From the NCBI GenBank assembly GCA_902571865.1, contig CACGDO010000008.1:31675-95674 (forward strand): DNA of 64,000 bases, written 5' to 3'. This DNA comes from an uncultured Alphaproteobacteria bacterium (lineage in GTDB: Bacteria > Pseudomonadota > Alphaproteobacteria > HIMB59 > GCA-002718135). Positions within the stretch are counted from its first letter, which is position 1; each line of letters starts with the position of its first letter. The notes below the pieces were generated by a model, which saw only the letters and a list, made by a program, of their open reading frames with translations, did not search any database and was not told the origin of the DNA. Made by a program: the position numbers and the translations under genes. Shown piece after piece: positions 1-34,679 of the stretch.

Positions 1-700
1 AGGTGGTATTCATATATTTGGAACAGATAAGGCAGGAAAAGATTTATTTAGCAGAACCTTGAGCGCAATTTATATTTCACTAGCTGTAGGGACACTTGGT
101 GTTTTTATATCATTTGTACTATCCCTAATTATAGGTGGAATATCAGGTTACTATGGTGGATGGATTGATAGTGTATTGCAAATGTTTACTGATGCAATTC
201 GAACGGTTCCGCCAATACCTCTGTTTATGTGTCTTGCTGCCTTTGCGCCATTAGAATGGAGTTCTGAATTACGGTTCTTTTTTATTTCCTGTTTACTTGG
301 ATTAATTTCATGGCCAACACTTGCTAGAAGAGTAAGAACGCATCTACTTAGTGAAAGAAGCCAAGAATATATTCTTGCTGCAAAACTTTGTGGAGCATCA
401 TCTACTCACATTATTATAAGACACTTGTTACCAAGTTTCACGAGCTATATTATTGTCGATTTAGTCATTAGTTTCCCATACATGTTATTATCTGAAACAG
501 CTTTAAGTTTTATAGGACTTGGTTTGAGAGAACCAGTAAACTCTCTAGGTGTACTTTTACAAAATGCAACAAAGGCCGACGTACTTTTAAACTATCAATG
601 GTATTTTATCCCTGTATTTTTCTTAGTCGTATTAATTTTAACATTTGTCTATGTGGGGGATGGATTACGTGATGCAGCTGATCCTCATAAGGTAAAATAA
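1..700 (+). CDS. Opp/Dpp-type ABC transporter permease (DppC-like), 5' truncated
   Basis: Inner-membrane permease subunit of a peptide/nickel/oligosaccharide-type ABC importer. The ORF track begins at a TTG at 59, but the frame is open to the window edge and the upstream codons read FGTDKAGKDLFSRTL, the conserved sequence that precedes the first transmembrane domain in DppC/OppC, so the true start lies outside the window. Several hydrophobic segments follow, and the EAA-type loop (AAKLCGASSTHIIIRHLLP) contacts the ATPases encoded next. The stop is one base before the next gene. The substrate is unknown; the downstream sugar dehydrogenases suggest a carbohydrate rather than a peptide. Confidence 0.93.
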   Translation, partial: GGIHIFGTDKAGKDLFSRTLSAIYISLAVGTLGVFISFVLSLIIGGISGYYGGWIDSVLQMFTDAIRTVPPIPLFMCLAAFAPLEWSSELRFFFISCLLGLISWPTLARRVRTHLLSERSQEYILAAKLCGASSTHIIIRHLLPSFTSYIIVDLVISFPYMLLSETALSFIGLGLREPVNSLGVLLQNATKADVLLNYQWYFIPVFFLVVLILTFVYVGDGLRDAADPHKVK

Positions 701-701
701 T

Positions 702-1691
702 ATGAGTCATTTATTAGAAGTAAAAAATTTAGATGTAAAATTTGATACTGATGAAGGTAGAATTACTGCAGTTGAAAATATCTCTCTTTCTGTAGATCAA
801 GGTGAAGTACTTGGTATAGTTGGTGAATCCGGATCAGGTAAATCTGTGACTGCTAAATCGATTATGAAATTAAATCCAGGTAATACTTCTTATAATGAAG
901 ACGCAGAAATAATTTTAGACAACGAAAATGTTCTTCAATTTACCTCTAAGCAAGACTTAAAAAAAATAAGAGGTGGTAAAGTATCAATGATTTTTCAAGA
1001 GCCTATGGCAAGTTTTGCTCCAGCAATAAAAATTGGCGCACAAATGGTTGAGCAATTACTAATTCATAAAAATATTAATAAAGAGGAAGCAAAATCAATA
1101 TCCATAAACATGCTAAAAAGAGTAGGCATAGCAGATGCAGAAAAACGGTTTAATCAATATGCATTTGAATTATCTGGGGGAATGCGTCAAAGAGCAATGA
1201 TAGCTATGGCACTATCAACAATGCCTAAACTTTTATTAGCAGATGAGCCAACAACTGCTTTAGATGTAACAATTCAAGCTCAAGTAATTAACCTAATTAA
1301 AGATATTATTAAAGAATATCAAATGGGAGTAATATTTATTACTCACGATCTAGGTGTTATTGCACAGGTAGCTGATCATGTAGCGGTTATGTATTTGGGA
1401 AGTGTAGTGGAGAAAGGTCCAGTAAATGAGATCCTTAAAAACCCAAAACATCCTTATACAAAAGGGCTATTACAAGCTTTACCTGACATAAATAACTTAG
1501 ACGCACCGTTATCTCCAATACCTGGAAACATTCCAAGTCCATTAGATAGACCAACAGGGTGTGTATTTAGAACTAGATGCCCCCATCATAATCCAGAAGG
1601 AAAAGATGGTAAAATAGAAATGAAATTAATTGAAGTTGAACCAGGTCACTGGGTTGATCAATGTGGAATTAAGTGTGGTCAAAATGGGTGA
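702..1691 (+). CDS. Opp/Dpp-type ABC transporter ATP-binding protein (DppD-like)
   Basis: ATPase subunit that powers the importer whose permease lies just upstream. Walker A (GESGSGKS, about residue 42), ABC signature (LSGGMRQR) and Walker B followed by the D-loop (LLLADEPTTALD) are intact, and the C-terminal oligopeptide-transporter domain has the usual GCVFRTRCP cysteine motif. At 329 aa it is normal length for DppD/OppD. Its last bases overlap the next ATPase gene. Its C-terminal IEVEPGHWVDQC tail is repeated almost exactly at the end of that neighbour. Confidence 0.95.
   Translation: MSHLLEVKNLDVKFDTDEGRITAVENISLSVDQGEVLGIVGESGSGKSVTAKSIMKLNPGNTSYNEDAEIILDNENVLQFTSKQDLKKIRGGKVSMIFQEPMASFAPAIKIGAQMVEQLLIHKNINKEEAKSISINMLKRVGIADAEKRFNQYAFELSGGMRQRAMIAMALSTMPKLLLADEPTTALDVTIQAQVINLIKDIIKEYQMGVIFITHDLGVIAQVADHVAVMYLGSVVEKGPVNEILKNPKHPYTKGLLQALPDINNLDAPLSPIPGNIPSPLDRPTGCVFRTRCPHHNPEGKDGKIEMKLIEVEPGHWVDQCGIKCGQNG
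1629..1654 (+). repeat. Direct repeat, copy 1 (3' end of first ATPase gene)
   Basis: A 26-base stretch beginning attgaagttgaaccaggtc is identical to bases 2623-2648 in the next gene. Both copies are in frame and encode IEVEPGHW near the C-terminus of the two ABC ATPases. The similarity continues imperfectly on both sides. Confidence 0.9.
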
Positions 1692-2670
1692 TAATTTAAT
1701 TTCAGTAAATAATGTTTCAGTAAATTTTGATTATCAAGAAAATTTTATTTCAAAAAAACAAAAAATACATGCTGTAAACAATATCAATATCAAAATTAAA
1801 AAAGGATCTTTTTTTGGTTTAGTTGGTGAATCTGGTTCAGGAAAAACTACTCTTGGTAGAGCAATACTTGGAGCTAATAAAATTAGTTCTGGAAATGTTA
1901 TTTTTCATGACGATGAAAAAGATTATGATTTAACAGATATGAACAAACAAGATTTAAAAGAATATAGAAAAAAAGCTCAATTAATTTTTCAAGATCCTTA
2001 TGCTGCTTTAAGTCCAAGAATGACAGTGAGGGATATTATTGCAGAGCCTTTAGAAGTGATGAAAATAACAAACTCAAGACAAGAAACTGATGAAAGAGTA
2101 AGAGACATTGCTTCAAAATGTAGATTAAATATTGAGCATTTAAGAAGATTTCCTCATGCATTTTCTGGAGGACAAAGACAAAGAATATCAATTGCAAGAG
2201 CCTTAGTAAGTAATCCAAAATTTATAGTAGCAGACGAAAGTGTTGCTGCTTTAGATGTATCAATACAAGCAGATATATTAAATCTTTTAAAACAACTTCA
2301 AACCGAGCTTAACTTAACTTATTTATTCATAAGTCATGATTTAAGTGTAGTAGCTCATGTATGTGATGTTGTTGCAGTTATGTATTTGGGGCACATAGTT
2401 GAAATGGGACCCTCAAGAGAATTATTTAAGAATCCAAAACATTCTTACACAAAGGCACTATTATCTTCTATTCCATCAATTGATCCAGAGAAAAGATCTG
2501 AAGCTATAGAACTAAAGGGAGAAATTCCTAGTGCATTAAATCCACCTCCAGGTTGTGTGTTTAGAACCAGATGTCCTAATCCTGGAGTAGATTGCAAAGG
2601 TGGAGAAATAAAAATGGGCCTTATTGAAGTTGAACCAGGTCACTGGGTCGATCAGTGTTGTGCTCTATAA
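1684..2670 (+). CDS. Opp/Dpp-type ABC transporter ATP-binding protein (DppF-like)
   Basis: Second ATPase of the same importer. The ORF track starts at 1630, but that would overlap the previous gene by 62 bases. The ATG at 1684 (MGDNLISVNN) overlaps by 8 and puts the first beta strand of the nucleotide-binding domain at the usual place, so I chose it (328 aa). Walker A (GESGSGKTT), signature (FSGGQRQR) and the GCVFRTRCP C-terminal motif are present. Walker B reads IVADESVAALD, with Ser-Val replacing the usual Pro-Thr after the catalytic Glu, a variation seen in DppF-type subunits. Confidence 0.93.
   Translation: MGDNLISVNNVSVNFDYQENFISKKQKIHAVNNINIKIKKGSFFGLVGESGSGKTTLGRAILGANKISSGNVIFHDDEKDYDLTDMNKQDLKEYRKKAQLIFQDPYAALSPRMTVRDIIAEPLEVMKITNSRQETDERVRDIASKCRLNIEHLRRFPHAFSGGQRQRISIARALVSNPKFIVADESVAALDVSIQADILNLLKQLQTELNLTYLFISHDLSVVAHVCDVVAVMYLGHIVEMGPSRELFKNPKHSYTKALLSSIPSIDPEKRSEAIELKGEIPSALNPPPGCVFRTRCPNPGVDCKGGEIKMGLIEVEPGHWVDQCCAL
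2623..2648 (+). repeat. Direct repeat, copy 2 (3' end of second ATPase gene)
   Basis: Perfect 26-base match to 1629-1654, 994 bases away. It encodes the same C-terminal IEVEPGHW peptide. Conservation at synonymous positions suggests recent duplication or gene conversion rather than protein-level selection alone. Confidence 0.9.
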
Positions 2671-4766: not shown

Positions 4767-5666
4767 ATGAAAAATAATTTATTATTAGCTGTTATATTAT
4801 CACTCTCAGGTTTGTTTTTATTGGATTGTATGGGGATTGCGATAAAGTTTTTACGAAACGAATATCCAGCAGCTCAACTTTCTGTTTTTAGAAATTTATT
4901 TGGAATGATCCCATGTGTTATTGCTTTATATTTTTCACATGATTGGCATCAAAATGGTAGAAAAATAAAAATAACGCAATGGAAGTTAGGATTATTCCGC
5001 GGAGTATTTGTAGCATTGGCTCAATTATGTCTCTATACTTCTTATGCTTACTTACCTTTTGCTTTAGTCGCTACCATGGAATACACTGGACCCATGATGG
5101 TCACCCTTCTTGCGATTCCTTTATTAGGTGAAAAATTTGGTTGGTACAAAATGAGTGCAGTAATTTCTGGTTTTGCAGGTATCGTTTTAATTATGCAACC
5201 TTGGTCATCAGACTTTAATTATATGTTACTACTTCCTATACTCGCTGCTTTTGGATATTCATTAGCAAGGGTAACATCCTTAAGTTTTGAGGATCATGTT
5301 CCTTCACCACTTATCAATTTGTATGGTCAAACAGGGACAATCATAGTTGCATGTATGTTAGTAGTGTTTTTTGGTATGTGGGAAAATTTCAAAAGTATAA
5401 ATGATTTCTTAGTAGTTTGTGTAATGGGGATTGCAGGAGGATCTGGAACTTTACTTTTAATATATGGTGCTAGAAAAGCAGAACTTAGTAAAATTATGCC
5501 ATTTGATTATATCGAGATATTTTTTGCACTTATTTTAGGTTGGATATTTTTTGCAGAATGGCCAGTTGATCAACTCTTCCCAGGTGCTTTTTTCATAGTT
5601 TTAGGTGGATTAATCATTTATCTTCAACAAAGAAAAAATAATTTTCAAAGATTAAGGAAAACATAA
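4767..5666 (+). CDS. EamA/DMT-superfamily transporter
   Basis: Integral membrane protein of 299 aa with about ten hydrophobic segments arranged as two EamA repeats (MEYTGPMMVTLLAIPLLGEKFG at the end of the first). Family members export or import metabolites such as amino acids or sugars; the direction here cannot be told. It sits inside the sugar operon and its stop codon overlaps the next start by one base (TAATG), so it is probably co-translated with the epimerase and may move an intermediate or waste product of this pathway. Confidence 0.85.
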   Translation: MKNNLLLAVILSLSGLFLLDCMGIAIKFLRNEYPAAQLSVFRNLFGMIPCVIALYFSHDWHQNGRKIKITQWKLGLFRGVFVALAQLCLYTSYAYLPFALVATMEYTGPMMVTLLAIPLLGEKFGWYKMSAVISGFAGIVLIMQPWSSDFNYMLLLPILAAFGYSLARVTSLSFEDHVPSPLINLYGQTGTIIVACMLVVFFGMWENFKSINDFLVVCVMGIAGGSGTLLLIYGARKAELSKIMPFDYIEIFFALILGWIFFAEWPVDQLFPGAFFIVLGGLIIYLQQRKNNFQRLRKT

Positions 5667-6718
5667 TGGAATATAAAATTACCAAACTTCAAAATGATAA
5701 AGGTTTAGATATTGACATAGTTAATATTATTAACTCAAACAATTATAGTTTTAGTTTTTATACTTATGGTGGTTATATGAGTGAAATTTGTATTCCAATT
5801 TCTTCGAATGTTTCTGAAACAGAGGATGTTTTATTAGGTTATGGTAATTTAGATGATTGCCTGGAAGCTCATGGATATTTCAATTCAATTATCGGAAGAG
5901 TTTGTAATAGAATAGGGCAAAGTAAATTTACTCTTAATGGGAAAGAATATAATTTATATTCCAATACTGAACCTGATCATCTTCATGGTGGAGAGGTAGG
6001 TTTCAATAAAAAGATTTGGAAAATAGCCGATATTAAAAAAACAAGCCAAAGTATAAAAGTAGAGCTCACTTACCAGTCTAAACATTTAGAAGAAAATTAT
6101 CCAGGCAACCTAAATTGTAAAACTATTTACGAACTTAATAATAATAACGAAATTCTAATTTCCTTTAATGCTACTACAGATCAAGATACTATTGTTAATA
6201 TGACTAATCATAACTATTGGAATTTCCATGGCCATAAAGATAATTATAAAAATATTACTGACCATGTTGTAAGAATATCATCTAATCAAATTTGCGAAAC
6301 TGATGAGGGATCAATTCCTACTGGTAAATTATTCGATGTAGTTAATACAAAATATGATCTTAATAATTCATTTGAAATAAATAAATCTTTTTTAGATGGC
6401 GGTGGTATTGATCACAATTATGTTCTCAAGGATTATTCTATTGATCAATCTATAGCTTCCATCTACAGTAATATTACTGGTATGGGAGTTGAATACTCGA
6501 CTGATCAACCTGGAATACAATTTTATACTGGTAATATGATGAAAGATTCATATCATGGCAAACATAATCGAAATTATGGATTACAATATGGTATGTGTCT
6601 CGAGACGCAAATTTTTCCAGATGCTATTAATCAACCAAATTTTCCATCAACTATATTAAAAGTAGGCGAAACATATAATTCAAATACAAAAATAAAATTA
6701 AGAAATGATTTTAAATAA
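5666..6718 (+). CDS. galM: Aldose 1-epimerase (galactose mutarotase family)
   Basis: Interconverts alpha and beta anomers of a free aldose in the cytoplasm. Diagnostic motifs appear in order: GRVCNRIGQSKFTLNG, DHLHGG (catalytic His), NHNYWNFHG (second His), DHNYVL, GIQFYTGN and CLETQIFPDAINQPNFPS (catalytic Glu). Its 350 aa match canonical GalM and are longer than YihR-type sulfoquinovose mutarotases of about 300 aa. It overlaps the preceding transporter gene by one base. Confidence 0.93.
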   Translation: MEYKITKLQNDKGLDIDIVNIINSNNYSFSFYTYGGYMSEICIPISSNVSETEDVLLGYGNLDDCLEAHGYFNSIIGRVCNRIGQSKFTLNGKEYNLYSNTEPDHLHGGEVGFNKKIWKIADIKKTSQSIKVELTYQSKHLEENYPGNLNCKTIYELNNNNEILISFNATTDQDTIVNMTNHNYWNFHGHKDNYKNITDHVVRISSNQICETDEGSIPTGKLFDVVNTKYDLNNSFEINKSFLDGGGIDHNYVLKDYSIDQSIASIYSNITGMGVEYSTDQPGIQFYTGNMMKDSYHGKHNRNYGLQYGMCLETQIFPDAINQPNFPSTILKVGETYNSNTKIKLRNDFK

Positions 6719-6764: not shown

Positions 6765-7265
6765 ATGAAAATCAGTAAAAAAATCATCGATAATTTAAAA
6801 AAAGGTGGAGTAGATTTTTACTTAAGTGTTCCTTGTAAGTTATTAGCCAACATGATTGATATTCTTGAAAATGATAAAGATGTTTATTATTCAGCTGTAC
6901 CAAGAGAGGAAGAAGGTATGGGTATTTGTGCTGGAGCTTATTTAGGAAATAAATTCCCATGTATAATGATGCAGAATACAGGGATTGGAAATTCAGTGAA
7001 TGCAATTGTTTCTCTATTACAATTATATCAAATGCCTGTTGTTTTTTTAATTAGTTACAGGGGTACACCTGGTGAGCCAGTAGGAGCACAAGGTGGAATG
7101 GCTAAAATAACTGAAGATATTTTACAAACTTTAAGAATACCTATGTTGCATTGTTCTTCAGAAAATGATCTTGAGAAAATTTCAACATTTAGCAAACATG
7201 CCAAAGTTGTTGAATCACCAGTAGCTATTTTATGTGATTTCAATTTAATGAAAGATGATAAATGA
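6765..7265 (+). CDS. comD: Sulfopyruvate decarboxylase-like, alpha subunit (TPP enzyme, pyrimidine-binding half)
   Basis: N-terminal half of a split thiamine-diphosphate decarboxylase. VPREEEGMGICAGAYLG carries the TPP-activating Glu, and MQNTGIGNSVNAIVSL is typical of the sulfopyruvate/phosphonopyruvate decarboxylase group. The 166 aa length and separate beta gene match archaeal and bacterial ComD rather than single-chain phosphonopyruvate decarboxylase. The family reaction is 3-sulfopyruvate to sulfoacetaldehyde plus CO2. The next gene overlaps by four bases (ATGA), so the two subunits are translationally coupled. Substrate assignment is inferred from family and context. Confidence 0.8.
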   Translation: MKISKKIIDNLKKGGVDFYLSVPCKLLANMIDILENDKDVYYSAVPREEEGMGICAGAYLGNKFPCIMMQNTGIGNSVNAIVSLLQLYQMPVVFLISYRGTPGEPVGAQGGMAKITEDILQTLRIPMLHCSSENDLEKISTFSKHAKVVESPVAILCDFNLMKDDK

Positions 7266-7831
7266 ACCGTTTTGACTTATTAAATAAAATACAAAAAATT
7301 CTTAAAGAGAACCTAGTTATTTGTAATATAGGTCTTCCGTCTCAAGAATTATATAAAATTAGTGATCAACCAAATTTTTTTTATATGTTAGGCAGTATGG
7401 GCTTATCATCTTCTATTGGCTTAGGCTTGGCACTATCCCAAAATAAACACGTTATTAGTATAGATGGTGATGGGTCTGTTTTAATGAATATGAATACACT
7501 AGCAACAATTGGAAATAGAGCACCATCAAATTATACTTTATTAATAATTGATAATGGATCATATGGATCAACAGGAGATCAAAGGACTTTTACTGATGAA
7601 AATACTTCTTTAAAAGATGTTGCAATAGGCGCTGGTTGTAACAATGTAGTTGAATGTTCTGGAGATGAAACAGTAAATGAATTATCAAAGGCTATTGAAG
7701 ATCAAAATAATTCTTACGTAATTATCTCTAAAATTAATTCTGGAAATGTCAAAATTGATCCAATTCCTCTCAACCCTATAACGATCAGAGATAGATTTAG
7801 AAAGTTTATAGGTATAGTTAAATACCTCTAA
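7262..7831 (+). CDS. comE: Sulfopyruvate decarboxylase-like, beta subunit (TPP enzyme, pyrophosphate-binding half)
   Basis: C-terminal half of the split TPP enzyme, 189 aa. It carries the TPP/Mg motif from DGDGSVLMNMNTLATIG to LLIIDNGSYGSTGDQRT, the signature of ComE and phosphonopyruvate decarboxylases. It would assemble with the alpha subunit just upstream. The kinase at 7842 follows after 10 bases and the SlcC-like dehydrogenase at 8747 completes a tightly packed four-gene unit. No xsc (sulfoacetaldehyde acetyltransferase) is present in the window to use its expected product. Confidence 0.8.
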   Translation: MNRFDLLNKIQKILKENLVICNIGLPSQELYKISDQPNFFYMLGSMGLSSSIGLGLALSQNKHVISIDGDGSVLMNMNTLATIGNRAPSNYTLLIIDNGSYGSTGDQRTFTDENTSLKDVAIGAGCNNVVECSGDETVNELSKAIEDQNNSYVIISKINSGNVKIDPIPLNPITIRDRFRKFIGIVKYL

Positions 7832-7841
7832 ATAAATATTT

Positions 7842-8747
7842 ATGATCATTTGTGCAGGATCAATATTTTTAGATAATATTAGTAGGATAGATCAGTTTCC
7901 AAAAAAACCAATTAAAGTTTTATCTAAAGGTATTGATAAAAGGTTAGGTGGTTCAGCAGCAGTATCAGCATTTACTGCTAAAAAATTAGGTTGTGAAACT
8001 AAATTTATTGGAAAATTTGGAGATGATGATGCTTCTGTTTTCTTAAAAAATGAATTTAAAAAATTTTCAATTAATATCAATAAATCTATTTCAATAAAAA
8101 AATGTAAATCCTCACAAAGTTTTGTAATTGAAGATTTAAATGGTGAAAGATTGCTAGCTGCTTATAATGACCCAAAGTTACTTAATTATAAGAAAATACC
8201 AAATTTAGATTTTAGAAAAAAAGATATTTATGCAGTAGATATGAGGTGGATTAGAATAGCGACTGAAATTGCCAGAAAGACTAACAAAAATAATATTAAA
8301 TGTGTTGCAGATTTAGATAATTTTAAAAAAACATCACGTATATCACAAATTGTTAAAAATGCTTCCCATCCCATATTTTCTGAAGAGGGTTTAAAAACAT
8401 ATAAGCGAAATTCAAATATGAAAACTGCTCTTTTTGAAATATTTAATGAAACACAAAAATTTGTAGCGGTTACATTAGGCTCCCAAGGCGTTCTTTGGGT
8501 AGATAACAATTCATTGTATCACTGTAAAATTCCAAAAGTTAAAACAGTTGAAACAAATTGTGCAGGAGATGTATTTCATGGAGCTTTCGCATCAGCCTTA
8601 TCTCTAAATAAATCAAATATAGAAAGTATTATTTTTGCATCTGCCACTGCAACTTTAAAATGTATGCAAAGTGGGGGTATATATTCAATACCTAAAATTA
8701 GTTTAGTTAATAAATTTTCAAAAAAAATAAAAATTAGTAAAATTTAA
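7842..8747 (+). CDS. PfkB-family sugar kinase, resembling sulfofructose kinase YihV
   Basis: ATP-dependent sugar kinase, 301 aa. The N-terminal GGSAAVSA substrate motif and C-terminal AGDVFHGAF with the catalytic Asp are clear. From memory, several stretches line up with E. coli YihV: SSQS followed by GERLLAAY, a D-x-RW motif (VDMRW), FSEEGL, and ATLKCMQSGG near the end. Generic ketohexokinases share some of these, so YihV-like is a hypothesis. The usual GAGD anion-hole motif reads CAGD, an uncommon change. It lies between the ComDE pair and an SlcC-like dehydrogenase, overlapping the latter by one base. Confidence 0.75.
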   Translation: MIICAGSIFLDNISRIDQFPKKPIKVLSKGIDKRLGGSAAVSAFTAKKLGCETKFIGKFGDDDASVFLKNEFKKFSININKSISIKKCKSSQSFVIEDLNGERLLAAYNDPKLLNYKKIPNLDFRKKDIYAVDMRWIRIATEIARKTNKNNIKCVADLDNFKKTSRISQIVKNASHPIFSEEGLKTYKRNSNMKTALFEIFNETQKFVAVTLGSQGVLWVDNNSLYHCKIPKVKTVETNCAGDVFHGAFASALSLNKSNIESIIFASATATLKCMQSGGIYSIPKISLVNKFSKKIKISKI

Positions 8748-9670
8748 TGATAAATATTTTAATTACAGAATTTATAGATCCAGAAGCATTAAAAATATTA
8801 AGTAAAGATTTTAATGTAATCTATAAAAAAGATATTTGGGAAAATTCTGATTATTTAAAAAAAGAAATTAATAAATTTGATGGAATAATTGTAAGAAATA
8901 AAACAAATTTAAATCAATCTATTTTAGAGAAAGCAGCAAATTTAAAGTACATTGGTAGACTTGGTGTAGGTCTAGATAATATTGACACTGAATACTGTAA
9001 AAAAAATAATATATTTGTTCAACCAGCCACTGGGATGAATGCTGACTCTGTAGCAGAATATGTAATAAGCTCTTCACTTAGCCTATTAAAGAAAACAAAG
9101 CAAATAAATGAAAAAACACAAAGTGGGCAATGGCCTAGAACGTCAATTACTACGAATGAGTTAAGGGGAAAAATTTTAGGTCTAATAGGATTTGGTGATA
9201 TAGCAAAAAAAGTTTTAAAACTTATAAATGCATTTGAAGTTACTACTATTGCATTTGACCCTTTTATAACCTCTCAAGAAATGGAAGAACATAATGTTAA
9301 AAAAGTAACTTTTGAAAATATTCTTTCTTTAGCTGATATAATTTCTATACATGTACCGTTAAATAATGAAACGAAATATTTATTTGATAAAAAAATATTT
9401 CAAAAAATGAATAACAAACCAATTATAATTAATTCATCAAGAGGAGGAATTATAAACGAAATAGATCTACTTGAAGCATATAAGAATAATTATGTTTCAG
9501 GATTTGCATTAGATGTTTATGAACATGAGCCAGTAAACAAAATATTTTTAAAAAATATTACAAACGATATGAATTGTATTTTATCACCTCATATTGCAGG
9601 GGTTACAGAAGAATCCAATACTAGAGTAAGTGAGTTTATTATGAATAAAACAAACGAATTTTTTTCATAA
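8747..9670 (+). CDS. D-isomer-specific 2-hydroxyacid dehydrogenase, SlcC-like
   Basis: NAD-dependent dehydrogenase, 307 aa. VGRLGVGLDNID-type sequence (here GRLGVGLDNID), the Rossmann motif GLIGFGDIAKK, SSRGGIINE with the substrate Arg, the catalytic Glu near DVYEHEP, and PHIAGVTEES with the catalytic His are all present. PGDH-like enzymes share this plan. The closing GVTEESN region and the overall length recall (S)-sulfolactate dehydrogenase SlcC, which makes 3-sulfopyruvate, the substrate of ComDE encoded two genes upstream. Alternatives are phosphoglycerate or glyoxylate/hydroxypyruvate reductase. It ends the plus-strand operon, facing a convergent gene 4 bases away. Confidence 0.8.
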   Translation: MINILITEFIDPEALKILSKDFNVIYKKDIWENSDYLKKEINKFDGIIVRNKTNLNQSILEKAANLKYIGRLGVGLDNIDTEYCKKNNIFVQPATGMNADSVAEYVISSSLSLLKKTKQINEKTQSGQWPRTSITTNELRGKILGLIGFGDIAKKVLKLINAFEVTTIAFDPFITSQEMEEHNVKKVTFENILSLADIISIHVPLNNETKYLFDKKIFQKMNNKPIIINSSRGGIINEIDLLEAYKNNYVSGFALDVYEHEPVNKIFLKNITNDMNCILSPHIAGVTEESNTRVSEFIMNKTNEFFS

Positions 9671-9673
9671 TTT

Positions 9674-10762
9674 TTAAATTTTAAATTCATCCATTTTAAC
9701 AATTCTATTTTCTTTTATAGAAATTTCAGCAGCTTCACCAATTGCAACTGCTTGTAAACCATCATTTAGACTTACAGCAGCTGGTTTAGAATTTTCAATA
9801 GAATCGAGAAATGAAATATGCTCATAATATGTAGAGCCATGATGATTTCCTACTTTTAAAATCTCTTCATCTACTTCCACAATCTCATCAAGAGTTTTTC
9901 CATTTTTTCGATATCCAATCCTTAATTCAGACGAGTTTTTGCCTGAGCTAGCTGAAGGTACAGCGGTTTCAATTTTACCGATATCTCCAACTGCACATAA
10001 CTCTTCTTGATTTGTTGAGTTTTCAGCAAACATACAGAGATCAAGCAAAGCTCTAACTCCATTTTGAAAATCAACAATTACATAAGCATTATCGAGAATA
10101 TCTGGAGTTTTATTATTATATTTTTCGTTTAAATGATTAACATCTTGGTTGCCACTTGCATAAACTTGTTTTGCTTCACTTTTTACAATTAATCTCATTA
10201 GATCAAAAAAATGACAGCATTTTTCAACTAATGTGCCTCCTGTATTTTCTGCAAATCTATTCCAGTTATTCACCTTAACTAAAAAAGGAAATCGGTGTTC
10301 TCTAATTGATAACATTTTTAAATTACCTATTGTTTTATTATGAATTTCATCAATCATTCTCTTTACTGGCGGCATATATCTATATTCCATTGCTGTCCAA
10401 ATTAAACCTGGATAATTTTTAGTTAAATCTCTGAATTCAATACAATCTTTAATTGTTGTACATAACGGCTTTTCTACTAAGATATGTTTCTTTGTCTTAA
10501 TTACATCTTTTAATACATCTATGTGTGTAAAATTAGGAGTAGAGATTATGTACCCATCAACAAGATCAGCTTGTATCATTTCATTATAGTTTGTAAAACA
10601 TGGAACTTTTTTATTAAGTAACGATAAAGATTGATTAATTGATTCATCATTTGGATCACTTAAAGCAACAATTTCTGCTCTATCAATTATATTGACATTT
10701 CTGACATGTTCGCGTCCCATTGATCCAGCACCTATTATCCCATATTTAAAACTTTTACTCAT
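9674..10762 (-). CDS. Gfo/Idh/MocA family oxidoreductase (inositol dehydrogenase-like)
   Basis: Third Gfo/Idh dehydrogenase of the locus, 362 aa. The Rossmann loop GIIGAGSMGREHVRN is consensus, LVEKPLCTT has the catalytic Lys, and GGTLVEKCCHFFDLMR covers the catalytic Asp/His region. It is the second gene of a minus-strand pair, with its start overlapping the isomerase stop by four bases. It converges on the SlcC-like gene. Probable role: NAD(P)-dependent oxidation of the sugar or cyclitol handled by the partner isomerase. Confidence 0.87.
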   Translation of the reverse strand: MSKSFKYGIIGAGSMGREHVRNVNIIDRAEIVALSDPNDESINQSLSLLNKKVPCFTNYNEMIQADLVDGYIISTPNFTHIDVLKDVIKTKKHILVEKPLCTTIKDCIEFRDLTKNYPGLIWTAMEYRYMPPVKRMIDEIHNKTIGNLKMLSIREHRFPFLVKVNNWNRFAENTGGTLVEKCCHFFDLMRLIVKSEAKQVYASGNQDVNHLNEKYNNKTPDILDNAYVIVDFQNGVRALLDLCMFAENSTNQEELCAVGDIGKIETAVPSASSGKNSSELRIGYRKNGKTLDEIVEVDEEILKVGNHHGSTYYEHISFLDSIENSKPAAVSLNDGLQAVAIGEAAEISIKENRIVKMDEFKI

Positions 10763-12126
10763 ACTGTGTATGTTGGAATTTTCATCTGATTACCTAGATT
10801 AACAATTTCGTTATAATAGTCACCGTAAGTAAAAGCAACGTGATGTTCAAGCCCACCTTTAAACATTTTTTCTATTTTATTTTTTGTATTTTTGCCAAAA
10901 CTTACTACACCTGAAGTTCCAGCAAATGAATTTTTCCTATTGATCACTTTTCCCTTAAGTACAAAAAATTTTAATTTACTTGCTGATTTTGAAACTCTGA
11001 ATATTGTTATATTTCCTGGTTTAAAAGCAAAATTATGAAGTAGCGGTTTTTTTCTATTAGAATGTATATCCGCTCTTGCATCACCTTTTTTAGACATGCT
11101 TAGAGGGGCTAACCCACAATGCCAAAAAACAACAGAATTATCTTTTTCATCTATATCGACAATATCCACTAATAAAGAAGGTTGATTGTTTAGTTGGTTT
11201 AGTATGTTGCAACTTATTCCTCCTAAAACGTCTGCTTCGCAAGCACTGCTAATTTTCTTTTCATTCATCATAGCCATAGGACCACAAGAAGCACAACCAA
11301 ATTCTGTAAACATTTCTGGCCAGCATCTAACTGCAAATGCTTGAACGTCGTGTTTTGTGTGAAGTGTATTTAATCCATGGTATATTGAAATACTTTTTTT
11401 TAATTCTTGTTGATTTAATTTTTTTGAATTCTTCAAATCTTTCTCAATTTTTATTTGTGTTGAATTTAAAATTGGTTTTTTAATTTTCTTAGCTTCTGAA
11501 AATAATTCATTTAATTTTATTTTTTTAATATCAAAATTTAATTTTTTCCTGATTTCCAATAATGAATAATCACATGTATCAAAACCTTCAGGTCTTTCAC
11601 CAACAAGTCCAATTTTTTGCCTCTTTATATCTATTTTTTTATTACTTTTTTTTCTAATCTGCTTCCATTCAATTATTTTATTAATATAAATTTTTTTATT
11701 AATAAATTTTTTAATTCTTTTTTCTAAGTCTTTTTGATTATTATATAATATGAATTCAGCATTAATATTATTTTTAATTAATGAGTGCATTCCTAAATTT
11801 AATCCACATACTGAATTAAGTCTTAATCTCTTTCCAGTTCGCGGCTCTGGAAAGGCAACGATACATATTGGTTTATTTATCTTTTTGGCAAAATGTAATA
11901 AAAATTTTGCATCTGTAAATGTAGTTTGAAAAATTATAATTTTTTTAAAATTATTATCTTTAAAATATTTAAATGCTTTTTCTGATAATTCATTATTAGT
12001 AACTAAATAATTAATTCCTCTTATTTCAGTAAATATATTTCGAAGAACTTTTTTACCTTCTAAAAATTTAGACATAGCAAAAGGCACATCAAAAGTTTCT
12101 CGTGCTAATCCTAGGTATCCAATCAT
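10759..12126 (-). CDS. L-fucose isomerase-family protein (short FucI-like)
   Basis: 455-aa relative of L-fucose/L-arabinose isomerases (FucI/AraA fold), well short of FucI (about 590 aa). Metal-site motifs are recognisable: AVRCWPEMF with Glu near residue 271, ACEADVLGG with Asp near 299, and GGLEHHVAF near 433. FGCASCGPMAMM is also typical. The N-terminal half is very AT-rich and poorly conserved. It is the first gene of a minus-strand pair with a Gfo/Idh dehydrogenase. Since the window's L-fucose route is oxidative, this enzyme probably acts on another sugar of the transporter/ComDE locus. Confidence 0.7.
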   Translation of the reverse strand: MIGYLGLARETFDVPFAMSKFLEGKKVLRNIFTEIRGINYLVTNNELSEKAFKYFKDNNFKKIIIFQTTFTDAKFLLHFAKKINKPICIVAFPEPRTGKRLRLNSVCGLNLGMHSLIKNNINAEFILYNNQKDLEKRIKKFINKKIYINKIIEWKQIRKKSNKKIDIKRQKIGLVGERPEGFDTCDYSLLEIRKKLNFDIKKIKLNELFSEAKKIKKPILNSTQIKIEKDLKNSKKLNQQELKKSISIYHGLNTLHTKHDVQAFAVRCWPEMFTEFGCASCGPMAMMNEKKISSACEADVLGGISCNILNQLNNQPSLLVDIVDIDEKDNSVVFWHCGLAPLSMSKKGDARADIHSNRKKPLLHNFAFKPGNITIFRVSKSASKLKFFVLKGKVINRKNSFAGTSGVVSFGKNTKNKIEKMFKGGLEHHVAFTYGDYYNEIVNLGNQMKIPTYTV

Positions 12127-12293
12127 TATTATTTCAATTATAGTTAATAATTTTCTCTCAAACCATGAAAATTAAAAAATTCAAAGATTAATTATATAAA
12201 TAAACACTAATTTTCTTATAAATTGTATTAATTTTTTTTTGAATTCGTATGGGTTCATGTTATCAATATTATATTAAATTATATGGAGGAATT

Positions 12294-13544
12294 ATGAAAA
12301 AAATATTTGCTATTTTTCTTCTTCTTACTTCAACATCATTTGCTGTAACTTCAGCAGAATTGAAGTTCATATGTTATCAAGATATTAATGAATGTGATAC
12401 TATTGCAGACATGGCTAAATCATGGGAAGCTTCTTCTGGACATACGTTAAATATTGAAACAGTTGGATATGAAGTAATAAGAGAGCAGTTAGAAAATCAA
12501 TTAGAATCAGGTGCTGCACCAGATTTAGCTAGAGTAACCAATTTAGGTGGATTAAATAAATTTTATTTAGATTTAAAACCTTATATTGATGCTACATATT
12601 GGGAACAGAATTATGGTGCAACTCTTCCTTGGTATAGAAAACCTTCTGGTGATGATGGTATCTATGGATGGCAAACTCAATTAACTGTTACTGGTCCTTA
12701 TGTTAATGTAACAATGTTTGAGGATGCTGGCGTTGACATGCCTGAAGAGGGTGCTACATGGGATGATTGGGCCGATGCTTTAAGAGAAGTTAAATCTGAA
12801 CTTGGATTAACAGCAGGACTTGCACTTGATAGAACTGCACATAGATGGGCTGGACCAGCCTTTTCTTATGGTGCAAAATTTCATGAAAATGGAACTCCAA
12901 TTCTAGTTGATGAAGGTTTTAGAAAATTTTCAGAAGTTTTTGTTGGATGGCATGAAGAAGGATTAATGCCAGCTGAAGGTTGGCCAGCTGGTGCTGGAAC
13001 CTCATACAGAAATGCAGCTCCTTTATTTTTAGATGGAACTGTTGCAATGCATATGTCTGGTTCATGGATGCTTGGAAACTATGATACTAACATTACAGAT
13101 TTTGAGTGGAAAGTTGTACCAATACCATGTGGTCCTGGTGGATGTGGAGCTATGCCTGGAGGTTCAGGAATAGTAGCATTTAATTCTACTGCAAATCCTG
13201 AAGCAGCTGCTTCATTTATTAATTTTATGGCGCAAACTGAAAATGCAGAAAAATTCGCTGCATCAACAAGTAATATCACTGCTCATCAAGGACTTCAAAA
13301 ATCAGGTATAGATTACACTGGTGTAAGTCCTAATGTTGCAGAAGGTCTTGCAATTTTTGCTGCAAATGCAGGAAAAGCTGCTGACACAACTCCTCAAGCA
13401 TATTGGTTCCAAGGTTACAATAAAAACTTTGCAATTTATGGAATTGTACCTGACTACATAACTAAAGCAATAACAGGAGAAATGTCTCTTGAAGAAGCTT
13501 TAGCAGCAATTGATGCTGATGTAGCTGCAAAAATAGCTGAGTAA
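12294..13544 (+). CDS. Sugar ABC transporter substrate-binding protein (CUT1 type)
   Basis: Periplasmic solute-binding protein of about 416 aa with a signal peptide (MKKIFAIFLLLTSTSFAVTSA). I chose the ATG at 12294 because a strong ribosome-binding site (atggaggaatt) sits just before it and the signal peptide begins there; the track start at 12249 adds an unlikely leader. Features of SBP family 1 include WDDWADALREVK, AMHMSGSWMLGN and AMPGGSGIVAF. The codon pattern favours high expression. A perfect hairpin follows before the permease gene. The ligand is likely an alpha-glycoside or uronide, given the GH31 and uronate enzymes downstream. Confidence 0.93.
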   Translation: MKKIFAIFLLLTSTSFAVTSAELKFICYQDINECDTIADMAKSWEASSGHTLNIETVGYEVIREQLENQLESGAAPDLARVTNLGGLNKFYLDLKPYIDATYWEQNYGATLPWYRKPSGDDGIYGWQTQLTVTGPYVNVTMFEDAGVDMPEEGATWDDWADALREVKSELGLTAGLALDRTAHRWAGPAFSYGAKFHENGTPILVDEGFRKFSEVFVGWHEEGLMPAEGWPAGAGTSYRNAAPLFLDGTVAMHMSGSWMLGNYDTNITDFEWKVVPIPCGPGGCGAMPGGSGIVAFNSTANPEAAASFINFMAQTENAEKFAASTSNITAHQGLQKSGIDYTGVSPNVAEGLAIFAANAGKAADTTPQAYWFQGYNKNFAIYGIVPDYITKAITGEMSLEEALAAIDADVAAKIAE

Positions 13545-13559
13545 ATAATTATTAATTTA

Positions 13560-13586
13560 TTAAGGCCGATCAAAAATCGGCCTTAA
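13560..13586 (+). other. Perfect inverted repeat between binding-protein and permease genes
   Basis: Arms TTAAGGCCGAT and ATCGGCCTTAA (11 bp) with a 5-base loop, starting 16 bases after the binding-protein stop and ending 5 bases before the permease ATG. No T run follows on the plus strand, so it looks like an mRNA stabiliser or processing hairpin rather than a classical terminator. Confidence 0.85.
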
Positions 13587-13591
13587 AAAAA

Positions 13592-14650
13592 ATGATGCCT
13601 GAAAATTTTTTAAATCTTAATTATTGGTATTTTATTACATTTATTTATTTGTTTGTTGGGTTTCTATTTTCAAGAGGTGTAATAGGTAGTGTAACAAGAT
13701 TAATGTCGATAGTAGGCTGGCCGATTGAATTAGCTCAAAGGTTAAGTGGTACAAAAAGTTTACCTTATTTATTTTTATTTCCAAATATTTTAATTTTTGG
13801 ACTATTTACTTTTTTGCCTTTGTTTATGAATTTTGGTTTTTCTGTTACGGATGGAGAAAGTATAAACTTTTCATCAAGGGATTACTCTGGTTCTGATAAT
13901 CTATCAAGAATTGTTTTAGAAAAACAAATAGATACTGGCGTTGAAAATATGGAGGATGATAAGTTTAAAGCTGCAATAGCGGATACTTTTATCTTTGTAC
14001 TATTTCAAGTTCCTATAATGATCCTCATAGCTTTAATAACTGCAATTGTTCTTAACAGAGAGATTGTTGGAAGAGCTTTTTGGCGAGCAGTTTATTTTTA
14101 TCCTGTTATGCTAAGCCCAGTTGTAGTTGCTTTTCTCTGGACGTTAATACTCAAAAGGCAGGGATTGTTATCACAGACACTAATGAGTTGGAATTGGATT
14201 GATGAACCAATACAATGGTTAACAGATCCGTCATGGACAATGTTTTGGTCAGTTCTAATTTATACTTGGGCCAATTTAGGTTTTTATATGTTGATTTTAT
14301 TAGCTGGTCTACAATCAATACCAAAAGATCTTTATGAAGCTGCAGAAATGGATGGTACATCAGATCAGAGAGTCTTTTGGAGAATCACCTTACCACTCTT
14401 AATGCCAATTCTTCTTGTAGTAACAGTCTTATCTTTGATTAAGGCTTTTCAAGCATTTGAAGAATTATTTGCTCTTCAAGTTGGATGGATATCATTAGTT
14501 TCTTATATTTTTGAAACAGCAGGTCTAAGAGGACAAAAAACAACTTTTGGTTTAGGTATTGCTGCAATGGCATCATTATTAGTTGCATTATTATTAATAC
14601 TTTTATCACTTCTTCAGTTTTATTTAACGAGACGACAAGTCAAGTTATGA
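13592..14650 (+). CDS. Sugar ABC transporter permease (MalF type)
   Basis: First membrane subunit of the CUT1 importer, 352 aa. An extra N-terminal transmembrane segment (about residues 10-30) precedes the usual MalF/UgpA-like core (SLPYLFLFPNILIFGLFTFLP), and the EAA loop reads DLYEAAEMDGTSDQRVFWRITLPLLMP. The start lies just after the hairpin and has no recognisable ribosome-binding site; it could be either of two adjacent ATGs (13592 or 13595). The gene overlaps the MalG-type gene by four bases. Confidence 0.92.
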   Translation: MMPENFLNLNYWYFITFIYLFVGFLFSRGVIGSVTRLMSIVGWPIELAQRLSGTKSLPYLFLFPNILIFGLFTFLPLFMNFGFSVTDGESINFSSRDYSGSDNLSRIVLEKQIDTGVENMEDDKFKAAIADTFIFVLFQVPIMILIALITAIVLNREIVGRAFWRAVYFYPVMLSPVVVAFLWTLILKRQGLLSQTLMSWNWIDEPIQWLTDPSWTMFWSVLIYTWANLGFYMLILLAGLQSIPKDLYEAAEMDGTSDQRVFWRITLPLLMPILLVVTVLSLIKAFQAFEELFALQVGWISLVSYIFETAGLRGQKTTFGLGIAAMASLLVALLLILLSLLQFYLTRRQVKL

Positions 14651-16086
14651 GTGCTGTTTTAAAATTTCTTTCACGCACTCAAGGTAAAAATGGACCTGCT
14701 TTGGTTGATTGGATTTCTTATATCTATCTTCTTTTAGGTTTTTTGATAATATTTTTACCAGTCTTATGGCTGTTACTAAACTCTATTAAATCTCAATTTC
14801 TTCTTCAAAAACTAGATACTAATATACTACCACTTGATTATGATAGAGTCGTGCGAGCTACTGTTTTTGGCCCGGAAGGAAAAGAAATTTTTATTATGAA
14901 AGATATGCCAGAATGGGTTATTTATTGGAACGAGCTTCGTGATGAAGATAAAAAAAATGAAAATAATCCAAATGAATTTATTTCTAATTATGAAGGAAAA
15001 GAATATTATGCGTTAAGAACTCATCTAGGGTTGGTCTCTGACCATGCTAAAAAACTAATTAAGCAAAAAAATTTACCTGAATGGCTTATAAAATATCCGA
15101 GTATGTTTCCAGATGCGAAAAAAGAATACGACCCTCAAGAATTTTTAACTAATTTAAATGAAGAAGAAATTCGACTTATGTCTGAATTTCTAGGTATTAA
15201 ACCTTATAAGCCAAATGGATTTACATCACAAATTTTAATATCTGCAATTAATCCTGAAACAAATAAACTTGAAGAATATTCTGTGAGTCGATTAAATAAT
15301 AATAAAGACACAGTAAATGCAAGATTAATTTCTAATCCCCAAGGAGGAATTGTTAAACTTCAAACGCAAGATATAATAGTTAACAAAAAACTTCGTCCTT
15401 CATGGATTAATTATTCTGATCCCTTAACAAACAATGTTAGAGGTATGAGTTTTGATGCCGTCAAATGTCTTAGTAACTCTCTTTTTGTTACTATAGTTGC
15501 AACAATTATAACAGTTTTGATAAATTCAATGGCAGCATTTGCATTATCAAAATACAAATTTAATGGTCAAATAATTTTCTTCATAATTATTTTGGCGACT
15601 CTAATGGTTCCAGCTTCAGTATTAATAGTTGGTATATTTAAAATGGTTTCTATGACAGGATTAAATGGATCTTTGTGGGGAGTTATTATACCTGGTGCTG
15701 CTACACCTACAGGTGTTTTTATGCTTAGACAATATATGCTAACAATTCCAGATGAGCTTTTAGAAGCTGCAAGAATGGATGCAGCAAGTGAATGGAGTAT
15801 TTATTGGAAAATTGTTTTTCCTCTTGCTCTTCCTGCTATTGCTGTTCTAGGTATACTCTCAATTATTTGGAGATGGAACGATTTAATTCTGCCAATGATC
15901 GCAGTATCGACTACAAAAACTGCTTACACTATCCAGCTTTGTTTACTTGATTTTCAAGGTGAATATGTTGCTCAAGAACACTATAGACTAGCTATGACTG
16001 TTGTCAGTTTAATACCTACAACTTTGGTATTTGTATTTTTACAAAGATACATAACCACTGGAATTGCAAACACGGGAATTAAATAA
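14647..16086 (+). CDS. Sugar ABC transporter permease (MalG type) with large periplasmic insertion
   Basis: Second permease, 479 aa against about 280-300 for ordinary MalG/UgpE. TM1 lies near residues 18-45. A hydrophilic block of roughly 220 residues follows (about 48-268, rich in charged residues and Asn), then the normal five-helix core starting near SLFVTIVATIITVLIN and an EAA loop (ELLEAARMDAASEWSIYWKIVFPLALP). The extra block must be the first periplasmic loop (P1). Alpha-glucoside AglG permeases also have an enlarged loop, but shorter. It may contact the binding protein or the sugar. Confidence 0.9.
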   Translation: MSAVLKFLSRTQGKNGPALVDWISYIYLLLGFLIIFLPVLWLLLNSIKSQFLLQKLDTNILPLDYDRVVRATVFGPEGKEIFIMKDMPEWVIYWNELRDEDKKNENNPNEFISNYEGKEYYALRTHLGLVSDHAKKLIKQKNLPEWLIKYPSMFPDAKKEYDPQEFLTNLNEEEIRLMSEFLGIKPYKPNGFTSQILISAINPETNKLEEYSVSRLNNNKDTVNARLISNPQGGIVKLQTQDIIVNKKLRPSWINYSDPLTNNVRGMSFDAVKCLSNSLFVTIVATIITVLINSMAAFALSKYKFNGQIIFFIIILATLMVPASVLIVGIFKMVSMTGLNGSLWGVIIPGAATPTGVFMLRQYMLTIPDELLEAARMDAASEWSIYWKIVFPLALPAIAVLGILSIIWRWNDLILPMIAVSTTKTAYTIQLCLLDFQGEYVAQEHYRLAMTVVSLIPTTLVFVFLQRYITTGIANTGIK

Positions 16087-16088
16087 TT

Positions 16089-17111
16089 ATGGCTACACTT
16101 GAAATAAAAAAAGTAAGAAAAAATTACGGAACCTTAGAAGTAATTCACGGTATTGATCTTTTCATTAACAATGGAGAATTTTGTGTTTTAGTTGGCCCAT
16201 CAGGTTGTGGTAAATCAACATTATTAAGAATGATAGCTGGACTTGAACAGATTACAAAAGGAGATATTTTGATTGATAATCAAGTTGTAAATAATATTTC
16301 TGCAGCAAGAAGAGGTTTAGCAATGGTTTTTCAATCATATGCTTTATATCCTCATATGAGTGTTAGACAAAATTTAGCTTTTGGACTGGAAAATTTAAAA
16401 ATGAAAATTGAAGAAATTGATAGACGTATTTTGGAAGCTGCAAGACTTCTTAGAATGGAGGAATACTTACAAAGAAAACCTGGCCAATTATCCGGTGGAC
16501 AAAAACAACGAGTTGCAATTGGGAGAGCAATAGTAAGAGAACCATCAATATACTTATTTGATGAACCACTTTCTAATTTAGATGCTGAACTTAGAGTTGC
16601 AACACGAGTTGAATTAAAGGCATTACATGCAAGGTTAGGTAATACTATGATTTATGTAACTCATGATCAAGTAGAAGCAATGACAATGGCTGATAAAATC
16701 GTAGTAATGAATGATGGTATTATTGAGCAAGTTGGAGCACCTTTAGAATTATACAACAAACCATCTAATAAATTTGTAGCTGGTTTTATTGGGTCACCAA
16801 AAATGAATTTTATACAATTTGACTATCTTCCAAATTCGTTAAAAGAAAAGGCACCGCCTAACTCAATAAGTCTTGGAATAAGACCTGAGCATCTATCAAT
16901 TAAAGATGAAAACTCGTTATTGCTAAATGTAGAAACAGTTGAGCAATTAGGTTCTGATAGTTTTTTGTATGGAACAACCTCAGGAGAACAAAAAATTTCA
17001 ATAAAACTAAATTATCAAACTGATATTCAGGCCAATCAATCAATTAAGGTTGGGTTTAAACTAGATGATGCTCATTGGTTTGATAAAGATGGTATTGCTC
17101 TAACATCTTGA
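16089..17111 (+). CDS. Sugar ABC transporter ATP-binding protein (UgpC/MalK type)
   Basis: ATPase of the CUT1 importer, 340 aa. Walker A (GPSGCGKST), signature (LSGGQKQRVAIGRAIVREP), Walker B (IYLFDEPLSNLD) and the switch His (YVTHDQVEAMTMADK) are intact. The C-terminal TOBE/MalK regulatory domain is present but short (GIRPEHL). The stop overlaps the TTG start of the glycosidase by four bases, which ties uptake and hydrolysis together. Confidence 0.95.
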   Translation: MATLEIKKVRKNYGTLEVIHGIDLFINNGEFCVLVGPSGCGKSTLLRMIAGLEQITKGDILIDNQVVNNISAARRGLAMVFQSYALYPHMSVRQNLAFGLENLKMKIEEIDRRILEAARLLRMEEYLQRKPGQLSGGQKQRVAIGRAIVREPSIYLFDEPLSNLDAELRVATRVELKALHARLGNTMIYVTHDQVEAMTMADKIVVMNDGIIEQVGAPLELYNKPSNKFVAGFIGSPKMNFIQFDYLPNSLKEKAPPNSISLGIRPEHLSIKDENSLLLNVETVEQLGSDSFLYGTTSGEQKISIKLNYQTDIQANQSIKVGFKLDDAHWFDKDGIALTS

Positions 17112-32855: not shown

Positions 32856-32886
32856 AAGATTATATAAATTTAAATTTAATTAAGTG

Positions 32887-34347: not shown

Positions 34348-34671
34348 ATGATTAGATTAGGTATGACTCTTGGAATTAAAGAGGAAAAAATAGAAGAATA
34401 TAAAAAACTTCATGCAAATGTTTGGCCTGAAGTCTTAGAAAATTTAACAGAACTTAATTTTAAGAATTATTCTATATATTTGCATAAAAATACTCTTTTT
34501 GGATATGTTGAATATCATGGAGATAATCTTGATAGAGATAACAAGCTAATGGCTTCAAACCCTAAAGTTCAAGAATGGTGGAGTGTTTGTGGACCATGTC
34601 AAATTCCAGACCCAAATAGAAAAAAAGGAGAATGGTGGTCCAGTATGGAAGAAGTTTTTCATCACGACTAA
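34348..34671 (+). CDS. L-rhamnose/L-fucose mutarotase family protein
   Basis: Small cytoplasmic mutarotase of the RhaM (DUF718) family, 107 aa, which speeds anomer exchange of a free 6-deoxyhexose. YKKLHANVWPEVLENL has the catalytic His and the VWPE motif, and NPKVQEWW and a Trp-rich C-terminus follow. Next to fucosidase and fucose dehydrogenase genes, L-fucose is the expected substrate. Confidence 0.9.
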   Translation: MIRLGMTLGIKEEKIEEYKKLHANVWPEVLENLTELNFKNYSIYLHKNTLFGYVEYHGDNLDRDNKLMASNPKVQEWWSVCGPCQIPDPNRKKGEWWSSMEEVFHHD

Positions 34672-34679
34672 AGTTAATT

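Follow-up and report, generated by a model that had tools for sequence, protein, structure and literature searches.

What route does an operon serve that places a sulfopyruvate decarboxylase next to a sugar kinase? The question is raised by four plus-strand genes at positions 6765-9670 of the window, which is the whole 64,000-nucleotide stretch analyzed here (C8:31675-95674 of genome G000; 1.63 Mb, 92% complete). They encode ComD, ComE, a YihV-like kinase and an SlcC-type dehydrogenase. The region is very likely a sulfoquinovose (SQ) degradation module that couples a sulfoglycolytic Embden-Meyerhof-Parnas (sulfo-EMP) front end to a sulfopyruvate decarboxylase/Xsc tail, and its most likely substrate is an SQ glycoside. 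SQ is the sugar of plant and algal sulfolipids, and its degradation is usually told as two-tiered: one organism yields C3 sulfonates and another frees the sulfur. The reading we favor, with somewhat less assurance, is an undescribed tandem route, sulfo-EMP plus SlcC-ComDE-Xsc, that would mineralize SQ to sulfite in one cell. Some alphaproteobacteria would have it in one operon, and a streamlined marine lineage, probably AEGEAN-169/Candidatus (Ca.) Indicimonas, would have a reduced version with exchanged blocks. The window genome appears to encode an almost complete gene set for it. The module is real and conserved, and its parts fit together functionally. What is new is the combination of enzyme families, each already known, and not the chemistry.

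The operon and its probable convergent sulfosugar genes

The genes at the center of the analysis are:

6765-7265, plus strand: ComD, sulfopyruvate decarboxylase alpha subunit by TIGR03845, with the EEEGMG motif
7262-7831, plus strand: ComE, sulfopyruvate decarboxylase beta subunit by TIGR03846, with the GDG...DNG thiamine pyrophosphate (TPP) motif
7842-8747, plus strand: YihV-like PfkB kinase, probable sulfofructose kinase (PDB match 7ag6, tree, fold)
8747-9670, plus strand: SlcC-type 2-hydroxyacid dehydrogenase, probable sulfolactate dehydrogenase (Pfam 2-Hacid_dh, tree)
9674-10762, minus strand: homologue of the GH188 NAD+-dependent sulfoquinovosidase SqgA (8qc3/8qc2 matches, sulfonate triad)
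10759-12126, minus strand: SftI-type sulfoquinovose isomerase (NF048012, below cut-off; fold)

A preliminary description of this DNA had listed four plus-strand genes joined by overlaps or a 10-base gap, and the open reading frames (ORFs) lie exactly where it placed them. ComD and ComE overlap by 4 bases, a 10-base gap separates ComE from the kinase, and the kinase and dehydrogenase overlap by 1 base. The GH188 and SftI-type genes (9674-12126) are convergent to this operon.

Hidden Markov models class ComD plus ComE as a sulfopyruvate decarboxylase by curated equivalog cut-offs, in agreement with the split TPP decarboxylase of the sulfopyruvate group described initially. ComD scored 161.1 bits on TIGR03845 (cut-off 147.95) and ComE scored 222.6 bits on TIGR03846 (cut-off 221.5), and the pair fell far under the cut-off of the phosphonopyruvate decarboxylase model. 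The best solved relatives of the two subunits are phosphonopyruvate decarboxylase subunits. The TPP motif is present in ComE, and EEEGMG in ComD holds the candidate catalytic Glu. ComE is 55-58% identical to ComE from Roseobacter comDE loci.

The kinase is probably a sulfofructose kinase, judged from homology, tree position and predicted fold. Its best PDB sequence match is 7ag6, the Escherichia coli sulfofructose kinase YihV, with 148 bits compared to 94 for the next entry. In the tree it forms a 100/100 clade with Thioglobus kinases that is sister to the YihV clade (84/83). Ribokinase, FruK, PfkB2, 2-keto-3-deoxygluconate (KDG)-type and IolC-like kinases fall outside the group of kinase plus YihV (99/98), so the tree places the enzyme with YihV and not with the ribokinases. 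The predicted structure has a predicted local distance difference test score (pLDDT) of 94.8, and its top eight PDB fold matches are all YihV chains. Alignment to YihV shows that K27 and R138 are conserved and that N109 is replaced by Ala; we take these three to be sulfonate-pocket residues.

The second metabolic enzyme of the operon is a D-2-hydroxyacid dehydrogenase, which automatic annotation would label a phosphoglycerate dehydrogenase (PGDH). The tree groups it with the cassette enzymes described below and with enzymes of Paracoccus and Methylobacterium loci that have the SuyAB-SlcC-ComC order; these locus enzymes stand in for characterized SlcC sequences. SerA, GhrB and LdhA are set apart with moderate support (85/79) and long outgroup branches. 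An N-terminal TEF(M/I)D-like motif is common to most dehydrogenases of the cassette/SlcC group. The PGDH label is no argument against SlcC because the PGDH model gives much the same score to the window enzyme (255 bits) and to the enzyme of the Paracoccus versutus SlcC locus (265 bits). The SlcC-like assignment is upheld by this placement with SuyAB-linked SlcC instead of SerA, and the enzyme is probably a sulfolactate dehydrogenase.

The product of 9674-10762 is a homologue of the GH188 sulfoquinovosidases rather than just any Gfo/Idh enzyme. It scored 369 and 364 bits against 8qc3 and 8qc2, crystallized GH188 NAD+-dependent sulfoquinovosidases that are SqgA (PMC10755693). A further PDB match, named just oxidoreductase, had 312 bits, and the next had 98 bits. 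ArSqgA contacts the sulfonate at R166, L170 and K172, and this triad is intact in the window motif EHRFPFLVK (residue 155). The window protein also has the EKP, KCCHF and HHGSTY motifs, in which the Lys and His residues of the active site lie. The GH188 enzyme FlSqgA is active on SQ glycosides and inactive on the glucosides or glucuronide that were tried. The preliminary description had placed an aldose epimerase and Gfo/Idh enzymes around the operon; the upstream epimerase was borne out, and this Gfo/Idh neighbor had to be renamed. A GH31 gene at 17108-19489 was considered as a YihQ-type sulfoquinovosidase, and this was dropped: it is 24% identical to YihQ and scored 258 bits on MalA alpha-glucosidase versus 124 on PRK10426.

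The isomerase scored 293.7 bits on NF048012 (SftI; E 2e-87) and did not reach the cut-off of 700, and for this reason it is named SftI-type and not SftI. Other isomerases of SQ clusters likewise scored 260-300 bits, and those of GH31-containing clusters were just as low, which suggests that the cut-off is suited to a narrow subfamily. A sequence search against the PDB gave no match for the isomerase; a fold search with its AlphaFold model (pLDDT 87.9) did match, to the L-arabinose/L-fucose isomerase fold. The GalM-type protein upstream of comD is a candidate SQ mutarotase. Its homologues occur in the complete cassettes L151 and L165 described below, in Zymomonas pZZM402, and in YihV clusters of Vibrio, Serratia and Yersinia.

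Conservation in the genus and related cassettes

The strongest evidence for the route comes from two other alphaproteobacteria, an uncultured Tropicimonas (L151) and G082 (L165), whose operons supply the aldolase and aldehyde dehydrogenase (ALDH) that are missing or unlinked in the window genome. Each carries the whole set as one operon: kinase, class I aldolase, SftI-type isomerase, GH188, GalM, GabD-type ALDH, SlcC-type dehydrogenase, ComD and ComE. Both operons are located downstream of DeoR and tripartite ATP-independent periplasmic (TRAP) transporter genes, and both genomes have Xsc over the cut-off. The suggestion that the window operon leads from a sulfosugar through sulfopyruvate to sulfoacetaldehyde is supported by these operons, which join the same enzymes, and by the presence of xsc. 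None of the outcomes that the preliminary description had named as refuting it occurred: the kinase branches with YihV, the dehydrogenase with SuyAB-linked SlcC, and xsc is in the genome.

Within the genus, a scan of GTDB genomes found comD and comE directly upstream of the kinase in 18/18 loci, and the dehydrogenase follows the kinase in every one of these loci whose contig reaches that far. The association is not chance, as the order is kept in all 18. The neighborhoods examined have the order Opp, EamA, GalM, ComD, ComE, PfkB and SlcC-type, with convergent GH188 and SftI-type genes; two extra Gfo/Idh genes are variably present. A LacD-type class I aldolase adjoins the isomerase in genus members G020, G026 (L090), L093 and L094. 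The kinase was detected in 21/37 genus genomes and in 0/24 genomes of the sister family.

Positions 6765-17111 of the window, compared with L036, L034, L037 and L092, show mosaic alleles. Four-fold-site identity between the window and G008 is 88-95% from OppD to GalM, drops to 76% in ComD and 49% in ComE, and is 35-52% for the kinase, dehydrogenase and GH188. The SftI-type, GH188 and ATP-binding cassette (ABC) importer genes are closer to those of Thioglobus, a gammaproteobacterium, than to those of G028 from the same genus. Together, these patterns suggest that the locus was shaped by block exchange.

Thioglobus and Pseudothioglobus are known mainly as sulfur oxidizers. Their loci (L092, L095, L096 and L097) hold a GH188-based sulfo-EMP module without ComDE, consisting of an ABC importer, aldolase, SftI-type isomerase, GH188, kinase and SlcC-type dehydrogenase. 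Some of these modules have a DeoR-type regulator, and some have adjoining GlpK- or GlpD-like genes (assigned by eye). The cassettes of G176 and G281 also lack ComDE; G176 encodes ComDE elsewhere, with a ComE of 219.6 bits, just under the cut-off. Neither Thioglobus nor G281 gave a noteworthy ComE match, so the product of the SlcC step can go elsewhere, and the fate of sulfopyruvate depends on the lineage. Roseobacter plasmids have comDE with HisD-like, short-chain dehydrogenase and alcohol dehydrogenase genes and TRAP transporters, not with sugar genes. Plasmid pZZM402 of Zymomonas mobilis, the well-known ethanol producer, has a class II aldolase, an aldose epimerase, an SftI-type isomerase, a GH188-type Gfo/Idh protein and a succinate semialdehyde dehydrogenase at L164 128-11361, and this gene content makes it a likely SQ cluster.

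The preliminary description correctly reported no xsc in the window. The gene lies outside it on contig C8 (885-2612), about 36 kb before the operon in the upstream direction, and scored 952 bits on TIGR03457 (cut-off 676). This contig, C8, also encodes a Pta-like protein, an aminotransferase of class III and an alanine dehydrogenase, so Xsc may also serve taurine. Xsc was over the cut-off in 17/23 genus genomes and in 0/14 sister-family genomes. A link between Xsc and the kinase by co-occurrence was tried and rejected, with Xsc over the cut-off in 11/14 kinase-positive and 6/9 kinase-negative genus genomes. In the two Thioglobus neighborhoods examined, Xsc follows an aminotransferase and an alanine dehydrogenase in a taurine-cluster-like arrangement.

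A GabD-type ALDH at C5:43039-44418 is the best candidate for the sulfolactaldehyde (SLA) dehydrogenase of this genome by similarity: it is 50.5% identical to the Tropicimonas cassette ALDH, and the next ALDH of the genome is 34% identical. Two class II aldolases are present, one generic (C6) and one beside inositol-type genes (C1). The latter was considered as a dedicated aldolase for sulfofructose (SF)-1-phosphate and not adopted, its neighbors being IolB- and IolC-like. A 2-keto-3-deoxy-6-phosphogluconate (KDPG)-type aldolase at 35563-36126 (by eye) was rejected for the same role as a member of a fucose operon. The initial statement that the window has no aldolase thus stands for the sulfosugar type and fails for this KDPG-type gene. 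The same text had called both ends of the route missing; xsc has now been located, and the aldolase sits beside the isomerase in some genus members and was not found here.

The proposed route and its alternatives

The analysis establishes enzyme families, gene order, co-clustering in several lineages and the presence of Xsc in the genome; each reaction of the route is inferred. An importer would take up SQ or SQ-glycerol, the GH188 enzyme would release SQ from its glycoside, and the GalM-type protein would interconvert the SQ anomers. The SftI-type isomerase would convert SQ to SF, and the YihV-like kinase would form SF-1-phosphate. Cleavage to dihydroxyacetone phosphate and SLA would fall to the class I LacD-type aldolase where present and otherwise possibly to a housekeeping class II aldolase. 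A GabD-type dehydrogenase would oxidize SLA to sulfolactate; this enzyme and the aldolase are candidate assignments only in this genome. The SlcC-type enzyme would then form sulfopyruvate, ComDE would decarboxylate it to sulfoacetaldehyde, and Xsc would release sulfite and acetyl phosphate. SlcC has been described as an (S)-sulfolactate dehydrogenase, and the order S-SLA to S-sulfolactate to sulfopyruvate was proposed for the sulfofucose pathway (PMC11131964, PMC12421959), which makes the stereochemistry of the route plausible.

Several observations weigh against this route. The ComE score clears its cut-off by just 1.1 bits, and the module occurs in Thioglobus and G281 without a ComE match of note. 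The kinase clade sits on a long stem and its pocket has diverged at N109. Xsc is compatible with taurine use too, and its distribution in the genus does not follow that of the kinase. A LacD/YihT-type aldolase was not found in the 92%-complete genome, and the SLA dehydrogenase candidate is unlinked to the operon.

These points give room to a reading with two functions side by side, in which GH188, isomerase and kinase degrade SQ and ComDE plus the SlcC-type enzyme chiefly process sulfolactate or 2,3-dihydroxypropane-1-sulfonate (DHPS) that has been imported. The Roseobacter plasmids with comDE and no sugar genes, the Thioglobus sugar module without ComE, and the divergence step inside comD/comE that separates the flanks within the genus all suit it. 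However, the Thioglobus SlcC-type gene stays with the kinase even though ComDE is absent, and L151 and L165 have one operon in pathway order with the aldolase and ALDH in between; a division of this kind is unlikely. A module for another sulfosugar or sulfosugar glycoside, with shifted kinase specificity, would explain the N109 replacement, the long kinase stem and the low isomerase score. This is very improbable, as the GH188 sulfonate triad is intact, FlSqgA acted on SQ glycosides, and scores just as low are seen for the isomerases of GH31-type SQ clusters.

An ordinary sugar operon would comprise a ribokinase-like kinase, a PGDH-like dehydrogenase and a generic or phosphonopyruvate-type TPP decarboxylase. 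The PGDH annotation and the many other sugar genes in the window are in keeping with it, but GH188 and the kinase and dehydrogenase trees largely refute it. The ComDE matches set against the low phosphonopyruvate model score and the equal PGDH score of an SlcC-locus enzyme also speak against it; its likelihood is extremely small. The sulfo-transketolase (sulfo-TK) pathway likewise relies on a TPP enzyme of two subunits (SqwGH) and has C2 sulfonates as its end products (PMC12890257); in principle the split enzyme of the window could cleave SF directly. Its subunits exceed the sulfopyruvate decarboxylase cut-offs and are not SqwGH-type, the solved proteins most closely related to them are subunits of phosphonopyruvate decarboxylase, and the kinase and SlcC-type enzyme would be superfluous, which leaves such cleavage a negligible chance.

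The tandem route resembles the sulfo-EMP systems of E. coli (yih) and of Arthrobacter with GH188 SqgA in having GH188, an isomerase and a YihV-related kinase, and in expecting an aldolase and SLA dehydrogenase. It differs in the SftI-type isomerase in place of YihS and in the aldolase not found in the window genome. Known sulfo-EMP systems export sulfolactate or DHPS, whereas the window route would continue through SlcC, ComDE and Xsc. Of the clusters described so far, two kinds come closest: GH188 clusters of the Tyr variant, found in Actinobacteria bacterium IMCC26103 and in Clavibacter sp. (PMC11465081), and the tandem sulfofucolytic-sulfolactate sulfolyase pathway that Paracoccus wurundjeri uses (PMC12421959). 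The Tyr-variant clusters likewise have GH188, a fucose isomerase, an SF kinase, a D-3-PGDH-like gene and a desulfonating tail. That tail is the sulfolactate sulfo-lyase SuyAB and not ComDE, and their sulfonate loop has Tyr where the window GH188 keeps Leu. The P. wurundjeri pathway also joins a sulfosugar front end to a desulfonating back end in one bacterium and uses SlcC, but its front end is of the Entner-Doudoroff type for sulfofucose and its back end is SuyAB, with SlcC/ComC before it; its authors called the coexistence of both tiers in one bacterium unusual. Roseobacter comDE loci, which resemble a DHPS route, share the related ComE and are expected to share the sulfopyruvate to sulfoacetaldehyde step; they lack sugar genes, and a TRAP transporter lies on their upstream side and an alpha-hydroxy acid oxidase behind comE. 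The Firmicutes sulfo-EMP2 and sulfo-TK pathways (SqvD with SqiK/SqiA or SqwGH) share the SqvD/SftI-type isomerase, whereas the window has a YihV-related kinase and a sulfopyruvate decarboxylase as its split TPP enzyme.

ComDE and Xsc are drawn in a general map of C3 sulfonate fate (PMC12330013), and a sulfo-EMP to ComDE route is not listed in the sections consulted of the 2026 review (PMC12890257). The preliminary description knew of no such cluster, and no description of the tandem route was found in the open-access papers covered by the search; a supplement, such as that of the GH188 paper, could already draw one. The two half-pathways joined here rarely occur together. Yearly SQ production is on the order of 10 billion tons (PMC10755693). 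If the tandem route is correct, both tiers would reside in one small-genome marine bacterium, altering readings of marine organosulfur flux from metagenomes. Metagenome pathway calls use templates without the sulfo-EMP plus ComDE combination; GH188 plus comDE in one locus would be a marker for it. The compact operons in the larger genomes of G082 and Tropicimonas are culture-testable versions of the route.

Transporters and neighboring genes

The remaining genes around the operon are:

59-700, plus strand: Opp-type importer permease, begins upstream of the window (ORF list)
702-1691 and 1630-2670, plus strand: Opp-type importer ATPases (ORF list)
4767-5666, plus strand: EamA/DMT-family transporter (Pfam EamA; position kept across the genus)
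5666-6718, plus strand: GalM-type aldose 1-epimerase (Pfam Aldose_epim)
12249-13544, plus strand: sugar ABC importer binding protein
13592-14650 and 14647-16086, plus strand: sugar ABC importer permeases
16089-17111, plus strand: sugar ABC importer ATPase

An importer 73-84% identical to the sugar ABC importer (12249-17111) flanks the aldolase-SftI-GH188-kinase-SlcC module in Thioglobus/Pseudothioglobus, and the window importer is a candidate for SQ or SQ-glycerol uptake. The Opp substrate-binding protein and first permease are on the contig just upstream of the window, and Opp genes lie upstream of comDE across the genus. The association of Opp with ComDE recurs in G176, where ComDE is behind an Opp-type ABC operon (L194 1270-9536), and in G082, where it is in front of an OppA-like gene (L165 15596-17915). 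The Opp-type system is a possible sulfonate importer of uncertain role, and the EamA/DMT-family protein is a candidate exporter. Elsewhere in the genome, L064 7103-7837 encodes a TauE/SafE-like membrane protein (by eye), a possible sulfite exporter. A sulfatase-family gene at L029 10886-12421, upstream of Opp genes, is kept in several relatives; the NCBIfam family that it matches best is PehA, a phosphoric/sulfuric ester hydrolase, at 413 bits below the cut-off of 900.

A fucose operon occupies 29746-36126 of the window, with a GH29 fucosidase, an aldo-keto reductase, a fuconate dehydratase-like protein, an amidohydrolase, a KDG-type kinase and the KDPG-type aldolase, all assigned by eye. The sulfonate terms searched for are absent from two AEGEAN-169 papers (PMC10308909, PMC11366302). 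One of these papers reports a GH29 fucose operon as a specific trait of Ca. Indicimonas within AEGEAN-169 (PMC11366302), and this match suggests that the lineage is probably AEGEAN-169/Ca. Indicimonas.

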